64,000 nucleotides of DNA from Streptomyces misionensis (GTDB lineage: Bacteria; Actinomycetota; Actinomycetes; Streptomycetales; Streptomycetaceae): positions 5,696,001 to 5,760,000 of the forward strand of contig NZ_FNTD01000004.1 in NCBI RefSeq assembly GCF_900104815.1. Direction: 5' to 3'. Shown piece by piece: positions 28,219 to 37,593 of this stretch. Position 1 is the stretch's first letter. Each line of letters begins with the position of its first letter. Below the pieces are notes generated by a model. It made no database searches and was not told the DNA's origin. It was given only the letters and a program-made list of their open reading frames with translations. The position numbers and the translations under genes were made by a program.

Positions 28219-28671
28219 GTGGCCGACAACGCGCGGGCGAAAAGGCTGGCGGACCTCATCCGAGAGGTGGTGGCCCAGAAGCTGCAGCGCGGGATCAAGG
28301 ACCCGCGGCTCGGCTCGCACGTCACCATCACGGACACCCGGGTCACGGGTGACCTCCGGGAGGCGACCGTCTTCTACACGGTGTACGGGGACGACGAGGA
28401 GCGGAAGGCCGCCGCGGCCGGCCTGGAGAGCGCCAAGGGCATCCTGCGCTCCGAGGTGGGCCGTGCGGCCGGCGTGAAGTTCACGCCGACCCTGACCTTC
28501 GTCGCGGACGCCCTGCCGGACACCGCCCGGACCATCGAGGACCTCCTCGACAAGGCCCGGCAGTCCGACGCCAAGGTGCGCGAGAACTCCGCGGGCGCCA
28601 GCTACGCGGGCGGCGCGGACCCCTACCGCAAGCCGGCGGACGACGAGACGGACGGCGACGCCGCGGAATGA
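28219..28671 (+). CDS. rbfA: 30S ribosome-binding factor RbfA
   Basis: A 150-residue cold-shock-related 30S maturation factor with a KH-like fold: RLADLIREVVAQKLQRGIKD, HVTITDTRVTGDLREATVFY and FVADALPDTARTIEDLL. The C-terminal tail is disordered and acidic. The GTG start (MADNARAKRL) follows GGGAGC; an in-frame upstream start would overlap the DUF503 gene. It overlaps truB in ATGA. Confidence 0.93.
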   Translation: MADNARAKRLADLIREVVAQKLQRGIKDPRLGSHVTITDTRVTGDLREATVFYTVYGDDEERKAAAAGLESAKGILRSEVGRAAGVKFTPTLTFVADALPDTARTIEDLLDKARQSDAKVRENSAGASYAGGADPYRKPADDETDGDAAE

Positions 28672-29573
28672 CCCAGAAGCACACCACGCCCGACGGCCTT
28701 GTCATCGTCGACAAGCCGTCGGGCTTCACTTCGCACGACGTGGTCGCCAAGATGCGTGGGATCGCCCGGACCCGCCGGGTCGGCCACGCCGGCACCCTCG
28801 ACCCCATGGCGACCGGCGTCCTGGTCCTCGGCGTCGAGCGGGCCACCAAGCTCCTCGGGCACCTCGCACTGACCGAGAAGGAGTACCTGGGCACCGTACG
28901 CCTGGGCCAGAACACCCTCACCGACGACGCCGAGGGCGAGATCACCTCGTCCACCGACGCCTCCAAGGTGACCCGGGCGGCCATCGACGCCGGCATCGCC
29001 AAGCTGACCGGCGACATCATGCAGGTGCCGTCCAAGGTCAGCGCCATCAAGATCGACGGCGTCCGGTCCTACAAGCGGGCCCGGGAGGGCGAGGAGTTCG
29101 AGATCCCGGCCCGGCCCGTGACCGTCTCCTCCTTCACGGTGTACGACGTCCGGGACGCGGTCGCCGAGGACGGCACCGCCGTGCTGGACCTGGTCGTCTC
29201 CGTCGTCTGCTCCTCCGGCACCTACATCCGCGCCCTCGCCCGCGACCTGGGCGCCGGTCTGGGCGTCGGCGGCCACCTGACGGCGCTGCGCCGCACCCGC
29301 GTGGGGCCGTACAAGCTGGACGCGGCCAAGACGCTGGACCAGCTCCAGCAGGAGCTGACCGTGATGCCGATCGCGGAGGCCGCCACGGCCGCCTTCCCGC
29401 GCTGGGAGGTGGACACCCGGCGCGCCCGGCTGCTGCTGAACGGGGTCCGCCTGGACATGCCCGACGAGTACGCGGACGCCGGTCCCGTCGCCGTGTTCGA
29501 CCCCGAGGGCCGCTTCCTGGCGCTCGTGGAGCTGCACAAGGGCAAGGCCAAGAGCCTCGCCGTCTTCGGCTGA
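28668..29573 (+). CDS. truB: tRNA pseudouridine-55 synthase
   Basis: A 301-residue enzyme that makes pseudouridine 55 in the T loop of tRNAs. GHAGTLDPMATGVLVLG holds the catalytic aspartate near residue 47. VDKPSGFTSHDVVAKM and CSSGTYIRALARDLG are further family motifs. The ATGA overlap with rbfA shows translational coupling. The C-terminal small domain is intact. The next gene (the trypsin/STAND protein) starts 253 bp away. Confidence 0.95.
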   Translation: MTQKHTTPDGLVIVDKPSGFTSHDVVAKMRGIARTRRVGHAGTLDPMATGVLVLGVERATKLLGHLALTEKEYLGTVRLGQNTLTDDAEGEITSSTDASKVTRAAIDAGIAKLTGDIMQVPSKVSAIKIDGVRSYKRAREGEEFEIPARPVTVSSFTVYDVRDAVAEDGTAVLDLVVSVVCSSGTYIRALARDLGAGLGVGGHLTALRRTRVGPYKLDAAKTLDQLQQELTVMPIAEAATAAFPRWEVDTRRARLLLNGVRLDMPDEYADAGPVAVFDPEGRFLALVELHKGKAKSLAVFG

Positions 29574-29826
29574 GCCGAGGCCCTCGCCCGTGGAGCGGCG
29601 GCCGGGCACGGGGTGCCTGCCCCCTGCCGCCGCCCCACGGTTCCCCCTCCCCCCACCCCTAGGGATATCCAGCGGCCCCCGCGTATTCACCCGAGCGGCC
29701 GGGCGCTCGGAGTGAACCGGGGGAGCGGAAGGGGGCGCGTTCCGCGTCCGCCCCGCCTCGACGATCATCGCGTGCCTACCGTCGGCACAGGCACGGGGCA
29801 CGGGGCACGGGCGGGGAGGCACGACC

Positions 29827-32800
29827 ATGACGACACGAATCCCGCGATCCGACAGCGCCCACGACGAGACGCTGCACGGCACGGGTGGCACGGTGAGCGG
29901 GGCGGAACCGCGGGACGCGGAGCGGACGGCCCGGGACGGGCGCGCCCACGCAACGGACGTGCCGGACGCGGCCCGCACCGGGCGGGCCTTCGCCCGCCAG
30001 GGCGGGGACACGGCCGACGGCACGGACCCGGCACCCGGCTCGCGGGAGCCCGCGTACCGCGCGACCGGCGGGGTGGACCCCGGCTGGGGTCTGCGGACGG
30101 TGCCGCGGGCCGTCGTCCGGTCGCACACCCCCCTCCCGGCCGTTCCCGCCACCGGAGCCGACCCCCTGGTCCGCATCCACGACCCCGCCGGCCGCCCCCG
30201 CGGCCTCGGTTTCCTCGCCGATCACCACGGCACCCTGCTCACCAGCCACGAAGCCGTGGCCGGCCTCGACCGGCTGGTGCTGCGCGCCGGGGACCGCACC
30301 CAGGTGGTCGGCGCCGACGCCGTGACCGAACTCCCCGAGCGCGATCTCGCCCTGGTGCGCACCGAGGGCCTGGGCGCGCCCCCGCTGCCACTGGCCGCAC
30401 GGGAGGAGGCCGAGGCCGGGACGTACGTGCGGCTCGCGGCCGGCTGCTGGCGGGAGGCCCGGGTGCTGGCCGCCGCCGAGGTGTCGTACGGCGGCCATCT
30501 CGTGACCGCGCTGGAACTGGCCATCGGCACGGCGGGCCGGGACGCGCTGCGGAGCGGCGGCGGGGCGGCCGGGGGACCGGTGCTGGACGCCCGTACCGGC
30601 GCCGTCCTCGGCGTGGTCGGCACCGCGTTGCACGCCCCGCACCGCGACGCCGGCTTCGCGGTGCCGCCGCACCCCGCCGACGGCCCCCTCGCCGAGCTGC
30701 TCGCCCGCAACGCGGCCACCGTGCCCGCCTACGGCGCCGACCTCAACCTGGCCGGCGTCCTGGAACTGACCGCCACCTCGGTGGGCCAGGACGGACCGCC
30801 CGAACCCCCCGTGGAGCCCGTCGAACGCGCCGACGTGGCCCGGCGGCTGAGCGACTTCGCCGACGGCGAGCAACCCGTGCTCGGGCTGGTCGGCGCCCCG
30901 GGCAGCGGCCGCACGACGGAACTCGCGGCGTTCGCCGCCCGCCGCGGCCGGGGCGAGCGGCCCGCCCCCACCCTCTGGCTGCGCGGCGCCGACCTGGCGG
31001 AGACCGACGGCTCGGTGGCCGACGCCGCCCGCCGCGCCCTGGAGCGCGCCGCCCGCATCATCGCCGCCGCGCGTCGGCTCGACCTCCCGGACGTCACCCC
31101 CGAGCACGTGGCCCGGCTCGCCGCCCGCGCGGGCCGTCCGCTGCTGCTCCTGCTCGACGGCCCCGAGGAGATGCCCCGCACGCCCGCCCACCGGCTCCGC
31201 GAGTGGACCGACGGCACGACCGCGTGGCTGCGGGCCGTCGGCGCCCGGCTGGTGGTGGCCTGCCGCGAGGAGTACTGGGAGCAGGCCGCCCTCCGGTCGC
31301 TGCCGTGCGTGCGCGTGGGCGACCTCGGCGCCGGGGAGGCCCGCCGGGCGCGCGCCCGCTATGGGATTCCCGAGGGTCTGCCCGCCCGGCGGGACGCCCG
31401 GCATCCGCTCACCCTGCGCCTGCTGTCCGAGGTGTGGGCAGCCCTCCCGGCGGCGCCGCCCGCCGGACCCGTCGACCGGCACCAGGTGTTCGAGGCCCAC
31501 CTCGACCTGGTGTGCCTGCGCGTCGCGGTGCGGCTCGCCGCCGAGCGGGGGCTGCGCGGCACCGCCGTACGACGGCTGGCCGCACGGGTCGCCGGGCAGG
31601 TGCACGAGGCCGCCCGGCGAAGCCTCGGGCCGGGCGAGCTGGACCGGGAGACCTTCGAGGCGGTGTTCCCCTGGGGACCGGCGCCCGCCCGGCTCGGCGG
31701 CGGCACCGGCTGGGCCTCCGCCGTGCTCGCCGAGGGCCTGCTGGTGCCGGCCGGCCGCGGCCACCGCTTCGCGCACGAGGAACTGGCCGACTGGCTCCAG
31801 GGCATGCACCTCGACCTGGACCAGGCCGTGCACGCCCTGGTGCACCGCGCCCGCGACCCGCGGACCGACCCGCGGGACGCGCCACCCGTGCCGCGCCACC
31901 GCATCGGACCCGTGGTACAGGCCCTGCTGCATCTGGGCCGCCGCCAAGGAGAACGCCAACTCTCCTTCAAGCTACGAGAGTTGGTGGACGCCCTGGACCT
32001 GGACACCGACTCCTGGTGGGCCGCCCGGCTGCTCGCCGGGACCCTGCTCCAGGTGCCGGACGCGGCGCCGTACACCGAGGTGCTGCGGCTGCTCGCCGAG
32101 CGGCTGGTGGCCTGGCGAGCCGAACGGCGGCCGGTGCCGGGGGAGTTCGGCCCGGACTTCTGGACCGCCCTGCCGCTGTCCTGCGCCGGGCGCCTGGACC
32201 TGCTGCGCCGGCTCGTCCTCGCCGACCAGGCGCCGCCCGCGCCCGGCGAGCGCTACCTCGACGCCGTGGCCCGGCTGCTCGCCGCCGACCCCCGCGCCGT
32301 ACAGCCGCGGCTGGTCCGCTGGTTCACGGACGAGCGGCCGCTGCCCGCGACCCCGCACGCCACCGTGGCGACCGCCGCGCAGGCCCTGCTGCACACCCAT
32401 CGGCACGGCGCGCTGGACGAGCTGACCGAGGTGCTGGCGGCCGGCGGCCACCCGCGCGCCGAGGAACTGCTCGCCGTGCTCGCCGAGGAGGAGCCGTCCG
32501 CGCTCTGCCGGGCCGTGGACCGCTGGGCGCGCGAGGAGGCACCCGCCCGGCACACGGCCGCGGCGACCCTCGGGCTGCGCGCCGCCCCGCACGCGCGCAC
32601 GGCCGCCGACCGGGAACTGCTCTGCCGCACCGCCCGCGCCCTGCTCGCCCGCCCCGCCGACCCCGCCCTGCACGGCGCCGCCCACGCCCTCCTGGCCGGC
32701 GACCCTGGCTCCCGCGAACGGCATCTGACCGAGACGCTGCGCCACTTCGCCGACGGCGACCCGCTCATCCCGCCGACCGCCCTGCTGCCCGCCCTGACCA

Positions 32801-33432
32801 CGCATCCGGAACCGGTCCTGGAGGCCTTCCGGACCCGGCTGCGCGGCCCGCACCGGGAGGCGGCCCGGTGTCTGTGGCGCCTGCTCACCGACGCCACCAC
32901 CCCGGCCCTCGCCCGCCGCGCCGCCGGCCTGCTGCGCGAGGCGGTGCGGCCGCACCCGGAGACCGCCGGCCGCGTCGCCGCCGCCGTCGACCGCAGGCTG
33001 GCCCGGGTCCCCACCCACCCGGCGCTGTTCCCCCTGGTCACCGGCCTGCTCAAGGACGGCCCCGAGCCACTGCGGGCCGCCCTCGCCACCGTCCTCGCCG
33101 CCCCCGGCTCACCGCGCCGCGAACTTCTGGAGTTCCTGCTCGACCGCGAGCGGGAACCGTCCGTGCTGGACGCCGTCCTGCACGCGGCGGCGGGGGGCGA
33201 AGGCTCCGCGGAGCGCGGCCTGGTCCACCGCACCGGGCTGCTCCTCGGCCGCACCCCGGAGGGCGCCACCCGCTTCGACCGCGCCCTGGTCGACCTGGCC
33301 CGGCACGTCCCCGGCTTCGCCGCCCGGATGACCCGCTGGCTCGCCGACGCCCCGGACGACTGGGCCGCCGTCGTCGGCCCCAGCACCCGCCGCACCCTGG
33401 AGAACCTGGCGGGAACCCGCGTACCGGCCTGA
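29827..33432 (+). CDS. Trypsin-like / STAND NTPase / helical-repeat protein with altered active sites
   Basis: A 1201-residue multidomain protein. After a disordered Asp/Arg-rich N-terminus, residues about 115-300 form a trypsin-like domain with His141 (LLTSHEAV) and Asp173 (ERDLALV). The serine motif reads GAAGGPVLD, so Ala248 replaces the nucleophile. A STAND/NACHT-like NTPase follows: Walker A GAPGSGRTT at 356 with Arg362 instead of Lys, Walker B LLLLLDGPEEMP at 439, VVACREEYWEQ at 476 and HPLTLRLL at 526. Residues about 720-1201 are Arg/Ala/Leu-rich helical repeats, perhaps HEAT-like. Related architectures are proposed for conflict or signalling systems in multicellular bacteria. It lies alone between truB and ribF. 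Its function is unknown. ATG follows GGGGAGG. Confidence 0.7.
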   Translation: MTTRIPRSDSAHDETLHGTGGTVSGAEPRDAERTARDGRAHATDVPDAARTGRAFARQGGDTADGTDPAPGSREPAYRATGGVDPGWGLRTVPRAVVRSHTPLPAVPATGADPLVRIHDPAGRPRGLGFLADHHGTLLTSHEAVAGLDRLVLRAGDRTQVVGADAVTELPERDLALVRTEGLGAPPLPLAAREEAEAGTYVRLAAGCWREARVLAAAEVSYGGHLVTALELAIGTAGRDALRSGGGAAGGPVLDARTGAVLGVVGTALHAPHRDAGFAVPPHPADGPLAELLARNAATVPAYGADLNLAGVLELTATSVGQDGPPEPPVEPVERADVARRLSDFADGEQPVLGLVGAPGSGRTTELAAFAARRGRGERPAPTLWLRGADLAETDGSVADAARRALERAARIIAAARRLDLPDVTPEHVARLAARAGRPLLLLLDGPEEMPRTPAHRLREWTDGTTAWLRAVGARLVVACREEYWEQAALRSLPCVRVGDLGAGEARRARARYGIPEGLPARRDARHPLTLRLLSEVWAALPAAPPAGPVDRHQVFEAHLDLVCLRVAVRLAAERGLRGTAVRRLAARVAGQVHEAARRSLGPGELDRETFEAVFPWGPAPARLGGGTGWASAVLAEGLLVPAGRGHRFAHEELADWLQGMHLDLDQAVHALVHRARDPRTDPRDAPPVPRHRIGPVVQALLHLGRRQGERQLSFKLRELVDALDLDTDSWWAARLLAGTLLQVPDAAPYTEVLRLLAERLVAWRAERRPVPGEFGPDFWTALPLSCAGRLDLLRRLVLADQAPPAPGERYLDAVARLLAADPRAVQPRLVRWFTDERPLPATPHATVATAAQALLHTHRHGALDELTEVLAAGGHPRAEELLAVLAEEEPSALCRAVDRWAREEAPARHTAAATLGLRAAPHARTAADRELLCRTARALLARPADPALHGAAHALLAGDPGSRERHLTETLRHFADGDPLIPPTALLPALTTHPEPVLEAFRTRLRGPHREAARCLWRLLTDATTPALARRAAGLLREAVRPHPETAGRVAAAVDRRLARVPTHPALFPLVTGLLKDGPEPLRAALATVLAAPGSPRRELLEFLLDREREPSVLDAVLHAAAGGEGSAERGLVHRTGLLLGRTPEGATRFDRALVDLARHVPGFAARMTRWLADAPDDWAAVVGPSTRRTLENLAGTRVPA

Positions 33433-33518
33433 GACCGCTCTCACACCGCCGCGGGCGACGTGCGCCAGGTCACAGCGCCCCTACCGATGCGGGCCGCGGG
33501 CACCCGGCATGGCACCCT

Positions 33519-33524
33519 TAGACC
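33519..33524 (+). promoter_or_regulatory. Candidate -10 element upstream of ribF
   Basis: TAGACC at 33519-33524 lies about 48 bp before the ribF GTG and resembles a Streptomyces -10 box. The -35 region is unclear. Confidence 0.3.
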
Positions 33525-33572
33525 TGCACAAGAGTCAAGGTGGACACGGACACGGGTCGAGGAGCGGTCACA

Positions 33573-34520
33573 GTGCAGCGCTGGCGTGGCTTGGAGGACA
33601 TCCCCGAGGACTGGGGGCGCAGCGTCGTCACCATCGGTTCCTACGACGGTGTCCACCGCGGCCACCAGCTGATCATCAAGCACGCCGTCGACCGCGCCCG
33701 GGAGCTGGGCGTCCCGGCCGTCGTCGTCACCTTCGACCCGCACCCCAGCGAGGTCGTGCGCCCCGGCAGCCACCCGCCGCTGCTCGCCGCGCACCACCGC
33801 CGCTGCGAGCTGATGGCCGGGCTGGGCGTCGACGCGGTGCTGATCCTCCCCTTCACCACCGAGTTCTCCAAGCTGTCGCCCGCCGACTTCGTGGTGAAGG
33901 TCCTGGTGGACAAGCTGCACGCCAAGGCGGTCGTGGAGGGCCCGAACTTCCGCTTCGGCCACAAGGCGGCGGGCAACGTCGAGTTCCTCGCCGAGCAGGG
34001 CAAGGTCTACGACTTCGAGGTCGAGGTCGTCGACCTGTACGTGTCCGGCACGGCGGGCGGCGGGCAGCCGTTCTCCTCCACCCTCACCCGGCGCCTGGTC
34101 GCCGAGGGCGACGTCGAGGGCGCCCGGGAGATCCTGGGCCGCCCGCACCGGGTGGAGGGCGTCGTCGTGCGCGGCGCCCAGCGCGGCCGTGAGCTGGGCT
34201 TCCCCACGGCCAACGTGGAGACGCTGCCGCACACCGCCGTCCCCGCCGACGGCGTGTACGCCGGCTATCTGCACGCCCAGGGCGAGGTCATGCCGGCCGC
34301 GATCTCGGTGGGCACCAACCCGCAGTTCGACGGCACCGAGCGCACGGTGGAGGCGTACGCCATCGACCGCGTCGGCCTCGATCTGTACGGCCTGCACGTC
34401 GCCGTCGACTTCCTCGCCTACGTCCGCGGCCAGGCGAAGTTCGAGTCGCTCGAGGCGCTGCTGGAGCAGATGACGGCGGATGTGTCGCGGTGCCGGGAGA
34501 TCGTCGCGGCGGAGGGCTAG
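33573..34520 (+). CDS. ribF: Bifunctional riboflavin kinase/FAD synthetase
   Basis: A 315-residue enzyme making FMN and FAD. The N-terminal FAD synthetase part has a nucleotidyltransferase motif, SVVTIGSYDGVHRGHQLIIK (His-x-Gly-His type). The C-terminal riboflavin kinase domain (about 190-310) has AQRGRELGFPTANV and TNPQFDGTERTVEAY. The GTG start (MQRWRGLEDIPE) follows GAGGAGCGG; an ATG-like start 11 codons up is less likely. It follows the trypsin/STAND gene, which separates it from truB. Confidence 0.94.
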   Translation: MQRWRGLEDIPEDWGRSVVTIGSYDGVHRGHQLIIKHAVDRARELGVPAVVVTFDPHPSEVVRPGSHPPLLAAHHRRCELMAGLGVDAVLILPFTTEFSKLSPADFVVKVLVDKLHAKAVVEGPNFRFGHKAAGNVEFLAEQGKVYDFEVEVVDLYVSGTAGGGQPFSSTLTRRLVAEGDVEGAREILGRPHRVEGVVVRGAQRGRELGFPTANVETLPHTAVPADGVYAGYLHAQGEVMPAAISVGTNPQFDGTERTVEAYAIDRVGLDLYGLHVAVDFLAYVRGQAKFESLEALLEQMTADVSRCREIVAAEG

Positions 34521-34608: not shown

Positions 34609-37593
34609 CTACTGCTGCGGCGGCTGTCCCTGGGGGTACGGCTGGGCCGGGTACGGCGGTTGGCCCTGCTGCGGCGGGTAGGGCACCTGCTGCGGCGGGT
34701 AGGGCTGCTGGCCCTGCGGCGGATAGGGCTGGCCGGGCTGGCCCGGCTGACCGGGATACGGCTGGCCGGGGACCTGCGGGTAGGGCTGACCGGGCGCGGG
34801 CTGGCCGGGCACCGGCTGCCCCGGCATCTGCTGGCCGGGCATCGGCGGCGCTGCCACCGGCGGCGGGTTGCCGTCGCTGGTCCACAGCCCGTGCGCCTGC
34901 TGGTGCCGCACGAAGTCCTCGGCGATCATCGCGGCGAGGTTGAAGTACGCCTCGCGGGTGCGCGGCCGCATCATGTCGAGGTCCACCTCGGCACCGGCGG
35001 CCAGATGCTCGTCGAAGGGCACGACCACGACCCCGCGGGTACGGGTCTCGAAGTGCGCCACGATGTCCTCGACCTTGATCATCTTGCCGGTCTCGCGCAC
35101 CCCGGAGATCACGGTCAGGGAGCGGGACACCAGGTCCGAGTACCCGTGCGCGGCCAGCCAGTCCAGCGTCGTACTGGCGCTGGACGCACCGTCCACGGAC
35201 GGCGTCGAGATGATGATGAGCTGGTCGGCGAGGTCGAGCACCCCGCGCATGGCGCTGTACAGCAGACCGGTGCCCGAGTCGGTCAGGATGATCGGGTACT
35301 GGCGGCCGAGCACGTCGATCGCGCGCCGGTAGTCCTCGTCGTTGAACGTGGTCGACACGGCCGGGTCCACGTCGTTGGCGATGATCTCCAGACCGGAGGG
35401 CGCCTGCGAGGTGAACCGGCGGATGTCCATGTACGAGTTGAGATACGGGATCGCCTGGACCAGGTCACGGATGGTGGCCCCGGTCTCCCGGCGCACCCGG
35501 CGGCCGAGCGTGCCGGCGTCCGGGTTGGCGTCGATGGCGAGGATCTTGTCCTGCCGCTCGGTGGCCAGGGTGGAGCCGAGCGCGGTGGTCGTGGTGGTCT
35601 TGCCCACCCCGCCCTTGAGGCTGATGACCGCGATCCGGTAGCAGGACAGCACCGGCGTGCGGATCAGCTCCAGCTTCCGCTGCCGCTCGGCCTCCTCCTT
35701 CTTGCCGCCCAGCTTGAACCGGGAACCGCCCGCCGCGGGCCGGCCGCTCTTCGCCTTCTGCCGCCGGTTGTTCAGCAGCCGGTCCGAGGACAGCTCCACG
35801 GCGGCCGTGTAACCCAGCGGCGCGGCACCGGGGTTGGTGGGCTGCCGCTGGTCGTGCTGGATCGGCTGCGGCCAGGCGGCCCCGGCGCGGGGGTCGACGG
35901 GCGGCTGGGGCTGCGGCTGCTGCTCCGGAGGCTGCGGGAAGCCGTAACCACCGGGCCCGGCGGCCGGGGCGTCCGACGGGGGGAAGCCGTAACCGCCCTG
36001 CTGCGCCGGTCCGCCCGGGCCGTTGGGCTGCGGGAAGCCGTAACCGGCGGCCGGGGAAGGGGCGTTGGGCGCCGGGGGCTGGGGCCCCGCCTGGGGGGCC
36101 GGGGGCTGCGGGAAGCCGTAGGCACCGGCGGGACCGGCCTGCGGGCCGCTCTGCGGGCCCGGCTGGGCGGGGGCCGGGGGAGTGGGCATGCCGGGCTGGT
36201 ACGGCTGAGGGGGCACACCCGGCTGCCCCGGCTGTCCCGGCTGACCAGGCTGTCCCGGCTGGTTCCAGGCGGCGGGCGCGGGCTGCGGCACCTGCGGCTG
36301 GAACGGCGGCTGCTGGCCCTGCACCGGGGCGGGCTGCTGGGGCCCGGCCTGCTGCGGGGCGGGCGGCTGGGGCATGGGCTGCGGTCCGGCCTGCGGCGGC
36401 ATCGGCTGCTGCGCGGGCCACTGGGCCGCGGGCGCCGGGGCGGCGGGCTGGTACGACGGCGGCAGCGGGGGCACACCGCTCCGCGGCGCGGGCGGCGGCG
36501 TCCACGCGGACGGGAAGTCCTGCGGGCCCGGCGCCGGAGCCGGGGCCGGGACGGGGGGAGCGGGCTGGGAGGCGGCGCCCTGAGGTGCGGTGCCGTTCGC
36601 GGGTACGGCGTCCTGGGGGGCGCTGCCGTTCGCCGGCACGGCGTCCTGCGGCGTCGCCTCCTCGCCGGCCCCGGCTTCCGCGGAGACCTCCTCCTGGCCG
36701 GAACCGTCGTCGCCCGCACCCTCCGGCGCGCTGTCCGCGGCGTCGGAGACCTCGGTCCCCGCGGCGCCGTCGCCGTCCGTCTCCGCGCCCTCGCCCGGGG
36801 CGTCCTCCTCCTCGGCGGCGTCCTCCGCGACGACCGCGTCCACGGCCCCTTCCGCGCTGGGCTCGGACTCGGACCCACCACCGGACTGCGAACCGGAACC
36901 GGACCCGAGGCCGGAACCGGAACCGGAATCGGACGAGGAACCCGCATCGGACGGGGAGCCGGACCGGGAACCGGCACCCGACCGGGCCTCGGACTCCGCG
37001 GCGGCCTTCTGCATGGCGGCGGCCTGCTCGGCGAGCTCGGCCATCTCCCGCTTCAGGGCGACCGCGGAGAACCGCATGGTGGCCCCGCTCTCCAGATCCC
37101 CGTTGTCGGTCTCGGGCTCGACGGCCGGGGCCTCGGGCCCGGCCTGCGGCGGCTGGGACGGCTGCTGCGGCTGCTGCAACTCGAACCCGTCGGGCAGCCT
37201 CGGCATCGGAACGGAACCCTCGGCCGGCGGAGCGAACGGCGTCCCCTGCGCGGGCGTACCGACCGGCGGAGTGCCGGGCGGCGGCGGAGTCGCCCCGGCA
37301 CCCGGCGCCGTCGTACCCGGCGACGAGGAGAACGGCGCGGCCGCGCCGCTCCCCGGGCCACCGGCCCCGGCCGCATCCTGCTCGGCGAAGCCCCCGGCGC
37401 CGCCCACGCCGCCCGGGCCCCCGATCGAACCGCCACCGCCGGAACCCGCGGGGCCGGACGCGTTCTGCGTGTACCAGGCGGGGGGAGCGTAGTCGATGGT
37501 GAACTCACCGGTGGTCTCGACGGCCTCCGCGTCGGGCTGGTCATCGCCGGGTGTGGCCCAGCCCCCGCGCATCCCGTCCCGATCGCTGCTCAC
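34609..37593 (-). CDS. EspI-like protein: Pro/Gln-rich tail fused to a MinD/ParA-type ATPase (type VII secretion)
   Basis: A 994-residue protein. An acidic Ser/Gly-rich region and a long Pro/Gln/Gly-rich stretch (to about residue 620) precede a MinD/ParA-like ATPase with Walker [17 protein letters not shown] near 660, [16 protein letters not shown] and [15 protein letters not shown] short C-terminal tail of PGQP/PYPPQ repeats follows. The layout matches mycobacterial EspI, which is linked to ESX secretion and phosphorylation. The GTG start has AGGAGG four bases upstream. A 37-codon small ORF overlaps its start by GTGA. It probably energises or regulates the ESX apparatus here; that role is inferred from the family and the location. 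Confidence 0.8.

Follow-up and report, generated by a model that had tools for sequence, protein, structure and literature searches.

The window analysed here is a 64,000-nucleotide stretch of the Streptomyces misionensis genome (assembly GCF_900104815.1, contig NZ_FNTD01000004.1, positions 5,696,001 to 5,760,000). At 29827-33432 of its forward strand, between truB and ribF, lies a gene whose translation is a stop-free chain of 1201 amino acids. Alignment with relatives and a structure model show the product to be a predicted NLR-like protein of Streptomyces, composed of a degenerate trypsin-fold N-domain, a complete NACHT switch module and a helical-solenoid C-domain (Table 1). Relatives are annotated as "trypsin-like peptidase domain-containing protein", "serine protease" or "Large Pro/Ala/Gly-rich protein". 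The original prediction, made from the letters alone, had described an intact frame of 1201 residues, a three-part layout (trypsin-like, NACHT/STAND, helical tail) and a truB-ribF setting; translation, the structure model and Pfam, which identifies both neighbours, agree with it on these points.

Table 1. Position of the gene, its encoded domains and motifs, and adjacent features in the window.
Feature	Position	Strand	Basis or conservation
Whole gene, 1201 amino acids	29827..33432	+	open reading frame translation
Variable N-tail, residues 1-113	29827..30165	+	mean top-residue frequency 0.14
Degenerate protease domain, chymotrypsin-fold (HtrA-like), residues 114-290	30166..30696	+	Pfam Trypsin_2; fold matches
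His141 codon	30247..30249	+	His in 327/329 members
Asp173 codon	30343..30345	+	unconserved: D116 G92 A76 N45 of 329
Ala248 codon, nucleophile position	30568..30570	+	A191 C117 S8 T6 R6 I1 of 329
NACHT module (nucleotide-binding domain, helical domain 1, winged helix, helical domain 2), residues 331-720	30817..31986	+	
P-loop GAPGSGRTT, residues 356-364	30892..30918	+	Arg362 codon 30910-30912, Arg in 329/329
Walker-B-like motif DGPEE, residues 444-448	31156..31170	+	D444 and E447 invariant, E448 98.8% of 329
Winged-helix F-x-H motif GHRFAHEELADW, residues 645-656	31759..31794	+	conservation
Alpha-helical solenoid, residues 721-1201	31987..33429	+	structure model
truB, upstream neighbour	28668..29573	+	Pfam
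ribF, downstream neighbour (open reading frame limits)	33540..34520	+	Pfam
Type VII secretion locus between ribF and rpsO	34609-54800		

The trypsin-like character of the N-domain is borne out by Pfam, which gives a single match for the protein (Trypsin_2, residues 126-263, E=3.4e-9, above cut-off), and by the predicted structure, in which this domain has a chymotrypsin fold and matches MucD, HtrA and MamO. NCBIfam matches, HtrA and MarP types among them, were all far below cut-off, and a profile search of solved structures gave useful matches for the protease part only. The structure model spans residues 104-1201, with residues 1-103 excluded; the N-tail varies among relatives, many of which are longer than 1201 residues. 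Residues 331-720 are predicted to adopt the fold of nucleotide-binding domain, helical domain 1, winged-helix domain and helical domain 2 (NBD-HD1-WHD-HD2), with strong similarity to NACHT proteins. Among 16 divergent members, Pfam at E<=0.1 found NACHT in three (best 1.1e-3) and nSTAND5 in six. The STAND/NACHT assignment is thus strong by predicted structure and weakly visible to Pfam in some divergent members, but Pfam is silent for this protein itself. With a best 19-residue mean hydropathy of 1.33, a membrane or exported protein was rejected, and the product is probably cytosolic.

Conservation was counted in a combined set of 329 sequences, which excludes the contig-end fragments L108 and L110, the fragments or split frames L113, L114, L122 and L125, and also L001-L030; no de-duplication was carried out between the protein collections and the related loci. 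The protein collections hold the best 120 of 2567 and the best 120 of 2538 matches, the related loci 80 of 269. Instead of the Walker A consensus GxxxxGK[ST], every aligned member has Arg at the position of the Lys, as had been read for Arg362 of this protein: 120 of 120 close homologues (own protein included), 206 of 206 sequences in a wider set, 120 of 120 in a second clade, and every readable stretch (12 of 15) taken from divergent genomes. The Arg362 codons vary synonymously (CGT 69, CGC 9 and CGG 1 of 79). Since none of the 240 chains from the two protein collections contains GxxxxGK[ST] anywhere along its length, the Walker-A Lys does not lie elsewhere in the chain. The remainder of the NACHT site appears retained, with Walker-B acids (identified by motif position), a sensor-1-like Arg and the F-x-H motif (F648 100%, H650 97.0%), whose His may be the equivalent of the nucleotide-contacting winged-helix His of NLRs. 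R480 and P527 are conserved in 97.6% and 99.7% of the sequences.

The protease site shows a different pattern. Next to Ala248 (GGGAAGGPV), Gly249 is present in 100% and Gly250 in 99.1% of the sequences, and on a FastTree tree of 110 of the 329 rows, built with columns 173 and 248 removed, at least 33 changes are needed at position 173 and 12 at 248. His141, Asp173 and Ala248 lie where the original prediction had placed them. Asp173 is indeed present, but its retention is accidental, as fewer than half of the members have Asp there. With Ala248 the protein lacks a His-Asp-Ser triad. The orthologue alignment proposed along with the prediction shows the Lys-to-Arg change to be conserved (329/329) and the nucleophile Ser to be widely lost (non-Ser at 248 in 321/329); the reading as a degenerate protease was correct. 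Strain-specific substitutions are therefore rejected, as is a Ser or Lys elsewhere in the chain, which the site alignment and the P-loop search do not support; judged by these alignments, both substitutions are family-wide and not local. In the second clade (120 sequences), Cys248 is found in 114, His in 118, Asp in none, and the full triad in 0/120. Many rows of this clade (P0121-P0240) are labelled S. virginiae or S. lavendulae.

In a sample of 120 genomes, a strong match was found in 58 of 73 same-genus genomes, G017 among them with a contig-edge fragment only; G068 has only a distant cousin at another location. Weak partial matches were seen in two genomes of other genera (G059, G114). In a class-wide sample of 197 genomes, 15 same-genus genomes match (own included) and one listed same-genus genome does not; the sole match outside the genus is again G059, weak and partial, giving 2 of 90 genera overall. 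One homologue, P0018, is labelled Actinocorallia cavernae, outside Streptomyces, and is possibly mislabelled. Among the 80 loci, which come from named genomes, truB lies upstream in all 76 where it is visible and ribF downstream in all 78, and the 76 loci showing both flanks have the same slot. In five gene-less genomes (G008, G010, G028, G031, G036), the matches to truB and ribF are separated by 165-617 bp in which the family is not matched, and in G037, G038, G040 and G044, from other genera, the gap is 199-1508 bp, also with no family match. The slot and the gene-less gaps would fit a gene that was inserted long ago, then passed on vertically and lost in part. It behaves like an accessory gene under vertical inheritance and unlike a mobile defence cassette; its location inside a conserved housekeeping string had been recognized correctly, but it appears to be an accessory insertion there, as truB and ribF abut in all five gene-less genomes inspected.

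Further upstream of truB, Pfam identifies infB and rbfA; past ribF follow a MinD-type gene, the type VII secretion locus, a PQQ-repeat protein and then rpsO. The gene adjoining ribF encodes a 994-residue MinD/ParA-type ATPase (34609-37593, minus strand). A scan of 29400-33700 found no sigma-70-type promoter (0 versus 0.0 expected; other promoter types were outside the scan) and no intrinsic terminator (0 versus 0.3 expected). By deduction from locus numbers, the S. coelicolor counterpart would be SCO5710, because SCO5709 is truB (PMC6344877) and SCO5711 riboflavin kinase (PMC9282665) in the available parts of these papers. In open-licence PubMed Central, searched partly by title and abstract start, we found no earlier description of SCO5710 or of a truB-ribF trypsin-like protein in Streptomyces, and nothing relevant on natural Arg P-loops.

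An active-looking relative exists within the genus. The cousin in G068 (L160:3251-6292) is a 1013-residue trypsin-STAND-TPR protein whose protease-to-P-loop segment is homologous (hhalign E 1e-7, probability 94%; BLASTP E 0.001). Unlike the 1201-residue protein it has Ser at 248 (GFSGGPV), Lys at 362 (GSGKT) and a tail of TPR type; neither truB nor ribF was matched in the 10.5 kb of sequence fetched for it. In the own genome, the family profile found only this gene and a 32-residue match at E=0.085, and the G068 cousin as query gave one match at E<=1e-3, in the NTPase part only; the matched frame has just 103 residues ahead of the GK[ST] P-loop, too few for a trypsin domain. L166 of the own genome (contig C4, about 7.85 Mb) is of STAND type; its P-loop (GEGGQGKT) is intact, and its N-terminal region is short and not trypsin-like. 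Within the limited reach of both searches, an active family paralogue in the own genome was rejected, and no partner was found there for the proposed role as dominant regulator of an active homologue elsewhere.

We compared the protein with known systems on the basis of the available parts of the papers cited. With the NACHT NLRs NLRP3, NLRC4 and NOD2 it shares the NBD-HD1-WHD-HD2 fold, an N-terminal domain and a C-terminal solenoid; it differs in Arg for the Walker-A Lys, in the degenerate trypsin-fold N-domain and, possibly, in a solenoid that is not leucine-rich. In rice Pik-2, the P-loop substitution Lys217Arg gives a protein inactive in cell death that keeps partner binding, and it serves as loss-of-function control in NLR work (PMC8631799). 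LypA, from the CARD-NLR system of Caulobacter, likewise fuses a trypsin-like domain to an ATPase with degraded Walker motifs, and its ATP site, although devoid of Walker residues, appears to be needed; however, LypA depends on the catalytic serine, also carries a CARD-like domain and acts together with LypB and LypC (PMC13236601), whereas the Streptomyces protein has Ala248 and retains Walker B, and no LypB/LypC-type genes were found among the scanned neighbours. In the iSTAND of MoxR-vWA ternary systems, the STAND is catalytically inactive and trypsin domains in effector position are nearly all inactive (PMC7159879), as may hold for the Streptomyces family. Unlike these systems, the Streptomyces gene has a fixed housekeeping location, and no MoxR or vWA genes stand beside it among the scanned neighbours (infB, rbfA, truB, ribF, MinD-type and type VII secretion genes). 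MamO, a magnetosome protein that binds transition metal, has neither NACHT nor solenoid and is cited here as precedent for the mechanism (PMC4794232).

As the Walker-A Lys is Arg and the protease site usually lost, the protein may be a docking or scaffold switch and not an enzyme, a reading we favour with middling confidence and with which the originally suggested binding or scaffold version agrees. The Arg P-loop NACHT module would still bind nucleotide, with poor or no hydrolysis, and the protein would be held in one nucleotide state or switch through binding and release. The solenoid may bind a partner or sense a ligand, and the degenerate protease groove, with His and the Gly-Gly loop fixed and Asp and nucleophile drifting, may dock a peptide or protein. 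The output would be complex assembly or recruitment rather than cleavage.

Several observations weigh against this docking switch. Pfam finds no NACHT or STAND domain at E<=1 in the 1201-residue protein, and a predicted template modelling score (pTM) of 0.66 for the long model leaves domain placement uncertain. Pure docking leaves the near-invariant His141 unexplained, the Cys248 of the second clade is compatible with a Cys-His protease, and since two of 206 sequences (P0077 and L075), though only these, have a full His-Asp-Ser triad, proteolysis could exist in rare members. The gene is constrained, yet evolves about twice as fast as its neighbours, with a median pairwise ratio of nonsynonymous to synonymous substitution (dN/dS) of 0.355 versus 0.169 for truB and 0.153 for ribF (79 sequences; non-independent pairs with dS below 0.6). 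No match was found in 14 of 73 same-genus genomes, although in one of these (G032) a contig break at truB may be responsible, and five copies show apparent frame changes: L009 (G013), L122 (G027), L163 (G065), L165 (G066) and L164 (G070). Absence in 14 or 15 of 73 genomes, higher dN/dS and frame changes together mark the gene as dispensable. The frame changes may be assembly or sequencing errors rather than real breakage. In G065, a short gene piece (L163:13930-14052; 82% identical to residues 577-604 over 28 residues; 41 profile positions) is found on the opposite strand, at a distance of about 8 kb and close to the minD-like gene, and is a duplication fragment or an assembly artefact.

Taken further, the altered motifs, the raised dN/dS and the frame changes could suggest a decaying remnant of an active trypsin-STAND protein. 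This is highly improbable, and largely refuted by conservation: Arg362 and the Walker-B acids are fixed, 215 of the 1201 positions reach 99% conservation or more in the 329 sequences, and in 78 of the 80 named-genome loci the match is covered by 1100 or more residues without a stop (contig ends truncate the remaining two), so that the frame is maintained, as originally claimed. A live protease is a quite unlikely alternative. Cys-His proteases with a trypsin fold are known from other sources (viral 3C type), and one clade could be of this kind within a family of fast-evolving protease switches, given His141 in 327 of 329 sequences, Cys248 in 114 of the 120 second-clade sequences and the conserved Gly-Gly; yet position 248 is Ala in 191 of 329 (own protein included) and Arg or Ile in seven, and only 116 have Asp at the acid position.

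The layout is shared with NLRs and trypsin-containing conflict systems, in which inactive STAND and trypsin domains also occur (PMC7159879 and PMC8195603, available parts), and so the protein might be a phage-sensing bacterial NLR that recruits another effector as output. We consider this unlikely, because the gene occupies its housekeeping slot in 76 loci without a mobile setting, no MoxR, vWA or nuclease genes were found among the scanned neighbours, and a PADLOC search for known anti-phage systems gave no model match beyond mad8 at E 0.047. The domains also have similar dN/dS (0.32, 0.36 and 0.39), and therefore no hypervariable sensor stands out. Of the immunity link in the original prediction, the layout remains, but nothing beyond it points there. 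Finally, a role as part or regulator of the type VII (ESX) secretion locus beginning downstream of ribF is very unlikely. Genes for EccE, EccB, a subtilase, two WXG100 proteins, an FtsK/EccC-type ATPase and EccD do lie downstream, and in gene-less G010 and G028 neither minD nor eccE was matched in the flank that was fetched; gene-less G008, G031 and G036, however, keep minD, two of them also eccE, and at eight of the 56 gene-bearing loci with a length of 17 kb or more, both genes are unseen in the fetched flank. Strict coupling is rejected on these counts.

Together, the family is a conserved variant of the NLR kind that is annotated as protease. Only tentatively do we extend the docking switch to a Streptomyces-wide NLR class, in which the Lys-to-Arg P-loop, inactivating in other NLRs, would be a fixed working state for hydrolysis-independent assembly, with docking by the protease groove, Cys-His in one clade, and a task in vegetative growth or development instead of antiviral defence. 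A large natural family with a strictly conserved Arg would show what NLRs are capable of without ordinary ATP turnover. The gene occupies a fixed locus, occurs in 58 of the 73 sampled genomes of the genus and has relatives annotated as proteases, so that this is directly testable in a laboratory Streptomyces.
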